From positions 1 to 47,955 of the forward strand of contig JAAYCR010000030.1 in assembly GCA_012729675.1 (NCBI GenBank): DNA of 47,955 bases, given 5' to 3'. The position numbers and the translations under genes were made by a program. Of the stretch, positions 236 to 2,506 are shown piece by piece (within the stretch, counting starts at the first letter, position 1; each line of letters opens with the position of its first letter). Origin of the DNA: Phycisphaerae bacterium. GTDB taxonomy: Bacteria > Planctomycetota > Phycisphaerae > Sedimentisphaerales > Anaerohalosphaeraceae. The notes beneath the pieces were generated by a model that was given only the letters and a program-made list of their open reading frames with translations, was not told where the DNA came from and searched no databases.

Positions 236-1360
236 TTACCATGTGGCAGTAACTTGTTCGATGGCCGCATCGAGGGCTTGTGCGCGGGTGGGCCACAAGT
301 AGGGTTTGACGGCGGCCAAGCCGCGGTGGGGGCGATTGTGCCACAGGGTGTTTTGTGCGGTGCGAGCAATGAGAGTTTGGAGGGTTTCGGCCAACTGTTT
401 GACGGAGCCATCGTAGAAGAACTCACCGGGCTGGCAGGTTTCGATGTGGGCAAGGATTCCCGGATAGGCCAGCCGTCGCGGCAGGAGCGGATAGGCGCCG
501 GCGGCGATGGCTTCGAGGACGCCGATGCCGAAAAATTCGTGGTTGGCAGTCGAGACGACGATATCGGCCTCGGCCAGCGCGTCGGCATACGCCTGTCGCG
601 AAGACTGGTAGCCCCAGCGGTCGATGCGGTCGGCAAATTGAACTTTGGCCCTCTCAAAGACCGCCGGTGCATCGCGAAACTGCTCGCCGATGACCGACAT
701 ACGAAACTCAAGCCCCGCATTTGCAAGCCGCTCTACGGCCGCGAAAAAATCTTCCGGATTTTTGTCGTGTTCCCATCGCGCCGCCCACAGGATTCGCGGC
801 GGGCCTGGACGACGCTGCAACGGACGAGCAGCGAACAACTCGATGCCGAGCGGCTGAATCGAGATTTTGCCGACCAACGCTTCAAGCTGCTCATTAGGCT
901 TGTAATCGGGCATACGGTTGAAGAGTTTGGCCAGCGCATCCAAAAACTCATCCCGATGAAAGGATGAGTTGAACCAAACCGCATCGGCGGCCAAAGCGGT
1001 CGTAAAATTGGTGATGGCATATTGATAATCCCGCTCGTCTTCCACGCGAACCGGATAGGTCAACTGGTTTTCGTGAAAATATACGACCGTCGGCAACCGA
1101 CGGACGGTTTCTGCGACCAAGCCGCGAAACTCGGCCAAGTTGAGCATATCCGTGCAGAACAGCACATCCCACGACTGCCCTGCCGCAACCTGCCGGTTCA
1201 CCTGCTCGGCCAGCGTGAACGCGCCGTGCCGCATCCGCCACTTCCACTTGTTCGGCGGAAGGGTCAGCACATCCCACTGATGGCGCGACCGGGCGATCCA
1301 GCCGTCCAAAAAGGCCTTATGCGAGCCGCCGTAGTATCCCTCAAGTGTCAGTATTCTCAT
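236..1360 (-). CDS. DUF3524/GTDC1-type glycosyltransferase, tRNA-queuosine alpha-mannosyltransferase-like
   Basis: A 374-residue GT-B glycosyltransferase. It opens with MRILTLEGYYGGSHKAF, the hallmark N-terminus of the DUF3524/GTDC1 family, whose vertebrate member (QTMAN) adds mannose to queuosine in tRNA-Asp. The C-terminal half carries the retaining-glycosyltransferase E-x7-E motif (EFFGIGVLE) and an RILWAARWEHDKNPE segment typical of the hinge and donor-binding region. The frame stays open a further 97 codons upstream, but that part lies over gdx in another frame and is not conserved-looking, so the ATG at 1360 is the start. It follows gdx by 20 bp on the same strand. There is no signal peptide, so it should be cytoplasmic. 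The family is well supported; the tRNA substrate in bacteria is inferred. Confidence 0.85.
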   Translation of the reverse strand: MRILTLEGYYGGSHKAFLDGWIARSRHQWDVLTLPPNKWKWRMRHGAFTLAEQVNRQVAAGQSWDVLFCTDMLNLAEFRGLVAETVRRLPTVVYFHENQLTYPVRVEDERDYQYAITNFTTALAADAVWFNSSFHRDEFLDALAKLFNRMPDYKPNEQLEALVGKISIQPLGIELFAARPLQRRPGPPRILWAARWEHDKNPEDFFAAVERLANAGLEFRMSVIGEQFRDAPAVFERAKVQFADRIDRWGYQSSRQAYADALAEADIVVSTANHEFFGIGVLEAIAAGAYPLLPRRLAYPGILAHIETCQPGEFFYDGSVKQLAETLQTLIARTAQNTLWHNRPHRGLAAVKPYLWPTRAQALDAAIEQVTATW

Positions 1361-1380: not shown

Positions 1381-1695
1381 TCAGGAAAACACCCTTAACC
1401 CAATAATGCCAACGGTAATCAACCCGATGCACATCACGCGGATCAGGGTCAGCGATTCGCCGAAAAGAAGTGCGCCGCACACGGCGGCGCCGACTATGGC
1501 AATGCCTGTCCAGACCGCATAGGCAGTTCCGATAGGCAGCGTCTTGGCCGCCAACGCCATCAAAACAGTACTCACAAGCATACAGATGCCCGCAACCATA
1601 GTGGGCACGGGGCGCGTGAATCCATCGGTAAATTTCAAGCCCACCGCCCATGCCGCTTCAAAAACAGCGGCCAGCAACAAAACAACCCAAGCCAT
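1381..1695 (-). CDS. gdx: Small multidrug resistance family guanidinium exporter Gdx (SugE type)
   Basis: A 104-residue protein with four predicted membrane helices, the standard SMR length. Glu13 lies in helix 1 (AVFEAAWAVGLK) and is the proton/substrate-coupling residue of the family. The WAVGLK and LPIGTAYAVWTGI motifs match the SugE/Gdx subtype, which exchanges guanidinium for protons, better than the EmrE subtype. The start at 1695 gives the normal SMR N-terminus; the frame extends upstream into the riboswitch and is not used. The leader contains a guanidine-II-like riboswitch and a sigma70 promoter, which independently support the guanidinium assignment. Only 20 bp separate it from the glycosyltransferase downstream, so the two may be cotranscribed. 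Confidence 0.93.
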   Translation of the reverse strand: MAWVVLLLAAVFEAAWAVGLKFTDGFTRPVPTMVAGICMLVSTVLMALAAKTLPIGTAYAVWTGIAIVGAAVCGALLFGESLTLIRVMCIGLITVGIIGLRVFS

Positions 1696-1716
1696 TATGC
1701 AGTTCCGGAATTGAAA

Positions 1717-1766
1717 ACGGGGTCGTCCCCACATAGATAAAAGCAGTATCAGGTCGTCCCGATACG
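1717..1766 (-). promoter_or_regulatory. Guanidine-II (mini-ykkC) riboswitch candidate in the gdx leader
   Basis: On the minus strand the leader holds two consecutive hairpins with identical ACGA loops. The first, at 1764-1747, is TATCGGG-ACGA-CCTGATA with seven pairs including one G-U. The second, at 1730-1719, is GGGG-ACGA-CCCC. A 16-nt linker separates them. Two tandem stems capped by ACGR loops is the defining architecture of the mini-ykkC/guanidine-II class, which controls SugE-type exporters. The second stem ends about 23 nt before the gdx ATG, and the GGAA likely to serve as ribosome-binding site lies between, so control is probably at translation initiation. This was recognised by eye. 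Confidence 0.85.
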
Positions 1767-1776
1767 CTTTGCACGT

Positions 1777-1813
1777 TTGACCGTCCATCCGCAAAGATCG
1801 GACGGACGGTCAA
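1777..1813 (-). promoter_or_regulatory. 37-bp palindrome overlapping the gdx transcription start
   Basis: TTGACCGTCCATCCG (1777-1791) and CGGACGGACGGTCAA (1799-1813) form 15-bp arms around a 7-nt loop, with one mismatch in DNA that becomes a G-U pair in RNA made in the gdx direction. The repeat begins at the downstream edge of the -10 box and covers the expected +1. That placement fits a repressor operator; GACCG half-sites are common for TetR-type regulators. No such regulator is encoded nearby. A leader hairpin is the alternative. Confidence 0.55.
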
Positions 1814-1840
1814 TGTACACAACAGCACTTGTGTTGTCAA
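1812..1840 (-). promoter_or_regulatory. Sigma70-type promoter of gdx
   Basis: On the minus strand TTGACA (1840-1835) is separated by exactly 17 nt from TACATT (1817-1812). The -35 box is perfect and the -10 box matches 4 of 6. Transcription would start near 1805, giving a leader of about 110 nt that contains both ACGA hairpins. Confidence 0.7.
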
Positions 1841-1876: not shown

Positions 1877-2506
1877 TTACTTTGCCCATTTAATAGTGCA
1901 GCCGTAAGGATCGGTTTTGGGCACGGAAACAGGCTTGCCTGCCAGCAGTTCATCAAGGGCCTGTTTGACGTAATTCTTCACATCGTCTTTGTTGCCGCGC
2001 GGATCGTCGTCGATGGCGCCTTGGTAAGCGATATTGCCGGACTTGTCGATGACAACCATGTCAGGCGTGCGGGTGACGCCGTATGCTTTGCCGACTTTGC
2101 CGTCCTGATCATTCAATATAGGATAGGGCAAGCTCCATTTCTCGGCCGCCGCCTTATTCTTGGCGTGGTCAAAATGGCTGGTGCTGTTGATGGCCAGCCA
2201 GACGACGCCCTTGTCAGCGTACGCCTTGGCCAGATCGACCATCGTGGACTTGGTCTCGTGGTGACGCATAACAAACGGGCATTCCGGGTTAACCCATTCC
2301 AATACGACATACTTGCCGCGGTAATCGGCGAGAGTGTGCGTCTTGCCCGCATGGTCAGTCAGTGTGAAATCCGGAGCTTTTTGAGCCGATTCTTCGGCCG
2401 GCTTGTTGGGTTGTTGGGCGTAGGCGGCCGATTCGCGACGACCACAGCCGCTGAGAAGAATGGCTGCTCCGAAAGAAACTAATCCGATTTTAAGTATCGT
2501 GTTCAT
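1877..2506 (-). CDS. AhpC/TSA-like redoxin lipoprotein with a single-Cys active site
   Basis: A 209-residue protein with an N-terminal lipoprotein signal (hydrophobic stretch ending LLSGC, Cys at about residue 20). The thioredoxin-like fold follows: a DFTLTDHAGKTHTLADYRGKYVVLEWVNPECPFVMRH-like region, then GVTRTPDMVVID carrying the cis-proline loop. The usual CxxC is replaced by ECPF, leaving one Cys at the active site, and a second conserved Cys lies near the C-terminus in YGCTIKW. This arrangement is typical of the exported redoxin/thiol-peroxidase-like family. The start at 2506 is preceded by GGGAG, whereas the extra nine codons upstream lack signal character. It probably acts on the outer face of the cell membrane. 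Its substrate is unknown. Confidence 0.8.
   Translation of the reverse strand: MNTILKIGLVSFGAAILLSGCGRRESAAYAQQPNKPAEESAQKAPDFTLTDHAGKTHTLADYRGKYVVLEWVNPECPFVMRHHETKSTMVDLAKAYADKGVVWLAINSTSHFDHAKNKAAAEKWSLPYPILNDQDGKVGKAYGVTRTPDMVVIDKSGNIAYQGAIDDDPRGNKDDVKNYVKQALDELLAGKPVSVPKTDPYGCTIKWAK

Follow-up and report, generated by a model that had tools for sequence, protein, structure and literature searches.

A canonical Guanidine-II riboswitch ahead of a predicted guanidinium exporter gene in a Phycisphaerae genome, probably gained as one segment

Guanidine is a toxic metabolite, and the gdx pump expels it. The locus described here lies in a 47,955-nt stretch of Phycisphaerae DNA that was analysed as a whole (hereafter the window), and it raises the question of whether two small hairpins in front of a gdx-like gene act as a guanidine sensor, at which level they would control the exporter, and how sensor and exporter came to lie together at this site. 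We consider it very probable that a canonical Guanidine-II (mini-ykkC) riboswitch controls the translation of gdx, and that gdx encodes a proton-coupled guanidinium exporter; the segment was probably gained as one piece. The features to which the text refers are the following:

1877..2491, minus strand: AhpC/TSA-type redoxin gene, upstream, at the other edge of the segment thought to have been gained
1812..1840, minus strand: sigma-70-like promoter candidate, TTGACA-17-TACATT (consensus scan, 10/12 matches)
1777..1813, strand not assigned: inverted repeat of 15 nt, 14/15 complementary, with a 7-nt spacer
1765-1746, minus strand: P1 hairpin, GTATCGGGACGACCTGATAC, 8 bp with an ACGA loop (Rfam RF01068 and covariation in 28 aptamers)
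1745-1732, minus strand: linker between P1 and P2
1731-1718, minus strand: P2 hairpin, TGGGGACGACCCCG, 5 bp with an ACGA loop (Rfam RF01068 and covariation in 28 aptamers)
1696..1717, minus strand: P2-to-ATG stretch of 22 nt with a weak GGA Shine-Dalgarno candidate (sequence)
1381..1695, minus strand: gdx, predicted SugE-type SMR guanidinium exporter, 104 aa plus stop (family, residues, PDB match)
236..1360, minus strand: QTMAN-like glycosyltransferase gene (PF12038), separated from the gdx stop by 20 nt and perhaps on the same transcript

The aptamer and the exporter

The initial annotation had placed two ACGA-loop hairpins between promoter-like sequence and gdx, and had labelled them as Guanidine-II RNA. 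Both hairpins were confirmed at the positions of P1 and P2 listed above, and the label was upheld when the Rfam model was run: positions 1765-1718 of the minus strand scored 46.0 bits with the RF01068 (Guanidine-II) covariance model (gathering score, 32 bits) and matched it over its full length, positions 1-48, with an E-value of 4.5e-6 when the whole window was searched. RF01068 had no other match in the 2.8-Mb genome. The two loops share the sequence GGACGACC and lie at -64 and -33 relative to the gdx ATG, which is the geometry of other gdx leaders. The inner four pairs of P1 and the inner four of P2 were kept in 28/28 aptamers, and several P1 and P2 pairs showed two-sided changes across this set; such retention with covariation argues for a functional fold and against two hairpins that arose by chance. 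In the window aptamer the conserved positions are all intact, P1 shows compensated pairs, and outer P1 pairs occur in AU, UA and CG versions. The aptamer would presumably bind guanidinium, with kissing between its two loops.

Compared with the Guanidine-II RNA of Escherichia coli gdx/sugE (mini-ykkC, RF01068), our element shares the two ACGR-loop hairpins, the full-length model match, and a downstream gdx at canonical spacing with no intervening gene. It differs in its P1, which is 8 bp long with extra AAAGC/GCUUU pairing, as well as in its weak Shine-Dalgarno sequence and a linker that lacks a clear anti-Shine-Dalgarno.

The gdx coding part (1695-1384, with the ATG at 1695, 22 nt after P2, and the stop at 1381) specifies a 104-aa product of the SMR family (PF00893, E = 4.3e-24). 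Its best NCBIfam model was SugE (NF008512) at 114.9 bits, below the equivalog cut-off of 126 bits, and we therefore name the protein Gdx-type from its residues and context rather than as a SugE equivalog. The closest PDB entry was Gdx-Clo (6wk5; E = 1.1e-30), with EmrE far behind (4e-10). Translation and alignment to Gdx-Clo showed that the two proteins, although divergent in sequence, are both SMR members that have E13, W16, S42, Y59, and W62 in common. Of these residues, W16 is conserved in Gdx, whereas glycine or alanine is found there in the Qac subtype (PMC7695847). The earlier claim of a SugE-type Gdx is thus backed, as a Gdx assignment, by family, residues, and best structural match. 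Since both kinds of SMR member have the same fold, the product could in principle be a Qac-type drug pump, but the presence of W16, the ranking of Gdx-Clo far ahead of EmrE, and the guanidine riboswitch linked to the gene make this extremely improbable. With W16 conserved in Gdx and Gdx-Clo as its nearest PDB entry, guanidinium export is the best assignment for the gdx product.

Control of gdx expression

Reviews class Guanidine-II RNAs as translational ON switches (PMC12186494). In the E. coli RNA an anti-Shine-Dalgarno has been proposed in the linker (PMC9094411), and a deletion from -30 to -11, which spans P2, was linked with constitutive gdx expression (PMC13064478). In the window, when guanidinium is scarce, P2 and its neighbouring sequence would be available for pairing with the ribosome-binding region or the first part of the gdx coding sequence, and little pump would be translated. 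Bound guanidinium would let the two ACGA loops kiss, stabilising P1 and P2, so that the gdx start region would be freed and the pump made.

Translational ON control of this kind is the best-supported reading of the window leader, given the analogy to known members, the conserved spacing between P2 and the AUG, and, weakly, the folding results. As regards spacing, we measured 19 other Guanidine-II/gdx leaders from Pseudomonadota, Desulfovibrionaceae, and the window's own phylum, and the gap from P2 to the start codon was 19-22 nt in 18 of them (including L102, where the start codon was set one codon earlier by eye, giving 19 nt); the exception was L085, with a gap of 87 nt. The 22 nt of the window fall within this pattern and mark its leader as a canonical member of the Guanidine-II/gdx units. 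As regards folding, the P1/P2 loop sequence appears able to pair with the first gdx codons. The CUCC/CUUCC-like anti-Shine-Dalgarno found in other leaders is absent from the window linker, and the Shine-Dalgarno sequence is weak (GGA only). In the model, the off state involves pairing to coding sequence, and its stability is only roughly equal to that of the on state. The extent to which the downstream sequence competes with P2 was compared with shuffles of that sequence: the window fell in the lowest 9%, and the mean rank was 0.32 over 17 loci, which are not all independent. For this leader, the precise helix of the off state and the sense of the switch are both inferred.

A real aptamer might instead act on transcription, with P2 and the UUUU directly after it serving as an intrinsic terminator. 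The site is weakly terminator-like because of this U run, and a scan did list P2 with UUUUCAAUU as such, but the stem has just 5-6 pairs followed by four U, and a U run after P2 was seen in no other gdx leader examined. A P2 stabilised by ligand would, moreover, turn the exporter off, which is the wrong sense for detoxification. We regard termination as very unlikely at this locus.

Translational control was also weighed against a promoter-based alternative. The TTGACA-17-TACATT promoter of the initial annotation is present as sequence (TTGACA at 1840-1835, 17 nt, and TACATT at 1817-1812 on the minus strand), but it does not exceed chance, with one such site found in 1.4 kb and 1.3 expected from shuffles; the candidate is thus credible by position only.

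Between this promoter and the aptamer lies the 15-nt dyad at 1813-1777, which was absent from the initial annotation. No dyad of this kind in the window is longer. It covers the transcription start predicted from the promoter and has no U tract. The genome holds a single copy of the full dyad, which is present in 0/38 other family genomes. Possible roles are those of an operator, of a hairpin in the leader, or of a hairpin at which the redoxin transcript ends. A dispersed repeat or MITE was considered and rejected: the full dyad is single-copy, and the half-site matches that we examined had no partner arm.

If the dyad were an operator, the riboswitch might be a transferred relic without control of gdx, whose expression would then depend on the promoter and on a repressor bound to the dyad. 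This 15-bp dyad, unique and placed over the predicted start, and the weak Shine-Dalgarno sequence would fit such a relic. The intact conserved positions of the aptamer, its compensated P1 pairs, and its canonical spacing to the AUG speak against it. Only two TetR_N proteins are encoded in the genome, both outside the window's contig, and the dyad is not repeated elsewhere, which leaves a TetR operator unsupported rather than excluded. Overall, we give the relic very little credence, and translational control by the riboswitch remains our preferred reading.

Origin of the segment and its neighbours

Guanidine-II was detected in only one of 39 family genomes, that of the window. Matches to the window gdx among gdx-like SMR genes were present in four of the 39, the window's included; two of the other three shared 48-49% identity with it, and one was weak. 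In a congener (G035), the orthologues of redoxin and QTMAN lie side by side, only a few dozen bases apart, with neither gdx nor riboswitch between them. Promoter, riboswitch and gdx thus probably entered together, as a single segment, between the genes for redoxin and QTMAN. Its acquisition in the window's lineage is the parsimonious reading; relatives may instead have lost the segment.

In a gdx tree built on 104 columns for 91 rows, which limits its resolution, the closest partner of the window protein was L031, from an acidobacterial MAG (support 95/85), whereas gdx proteins of the window's own family (L120, L121) and of other phylum members were placed elsewhere. No riboswitch was detectable in the leader of L031, and so a joint transfer from the L031 lineage is unsupported. 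At 56%, the GC content of gdx is unremarkable next to that of its neighbours, which makes composition uninformative on transfer. A plasmid origin was considered and set aside, as blastn of the 516-nt segment against plasmids returned only partial matches (67-84%), two of them annotated sugE.

The glycosyltransferase downstream of gdx was identified as QTMAN (PF12038, E = 3e-62). The initial annotation had suggested that it may share the control of gdx. This is possible, since a gene that begins 20 nt past gdx on the same strand is likely to be reached by read-through, but the sharing looks incidental. QTMAN is present in 22/39 family genomes, with no adjacent gdx in the relatives examined, and no QTMAN match was obtained at any other gdx or riboswitch locus fetched, so that shared control is probably a by-product of the landing site. 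We also considered a cassette controlled twice, by a DNA-binding repressor at the dyad and by the translational riboswitch, that moved as a self-contained promoter-operator-riboswitch-exporter unit and now also drives the tRNA-queuosine mannosyltransferase gene; this we judge unlikely. With regard to guanidine degradation, DUF1989 (carboxyguanidine deaminase family) was not found in the window's genome. PADLOC returned no match.

The sensor-exporter device itself is already well known, and the window unit is a canonical member: it adds one more well-formed example of a guanidine-response unit and leaves knowledge of the riboswitch class unchanged. The new point is the probable joint gain of sensor and exporter at an identifiable site, of which this is a fairly clean case.

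Guanidine-II elements in the phylum and beyond

The expectation that this locus would extend the distribution of the class was not borne out, as about 20 of 392 evenly drawn phylum genomes already carry convincing Guanidine-II elements (loci judged by reading). RF01068 matches were found in 26 of the 392 genomes, 21 of them above the cut-off. The convincing set comprised nine genomes with a downstream gdx (the window's included), one with a PACE-type exporter, and ten of family f16 with import or degradation genes (Pfam was run on f16 representatives, and the others were judged by eye). Six matches near the cut-off (L021, L022, L023, L024, L025, and L026) look like chance, in GC-rich coding or tandem-repeat sequence; among these, L022 scored 32.1 bits and thus lies above the gathering score. 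A partial literature search found no work on Guanidine-II together with planctomycetes. The phylum assignment has indirect support from PF07596, a family typical of planctomycetes, which was present in 9/13 genomes searched and 0/14 controls, although it is absent from the window's genome.

The PACE-type case (L019, in genome G189 of the same phylum) has a Guanidine-II element of 35.2 bits located 19 nt before the exporter gene, which belongs to the chlorhexidine efflux family (PF05232, E = 3e-49). In a congener of G189 (G425), an element that scores under the threshold (L156) precedes an ordinary gdx. The literature search made on this point yielded no paper that links guanidine riboswitches with PACE.

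Nine Rhizobium gdx leaders (L033, L039, L043, L044, L047, L056, L057, L058, and L065) have two loops, with AGACGACT near -70 and GGACGGCC near -32, and score under the Rfam cut-off. They probably represent Guanidine-II elements so divergent that the model does not detect them.

In family f16, Guanidine-II elements occur as pairs in opposite directions, about 160-430 bp apart (L002, L003, L005, L008, L010, L017, L018, L027, and L029). The pairs adjoin genes for substrate-binding proteins (NMT1-like) or of the creatininase family, and DUF1989 genes follow single elements at L012 and L016. The f16 arrangement looks like divergent guanidine uptake/degradation.
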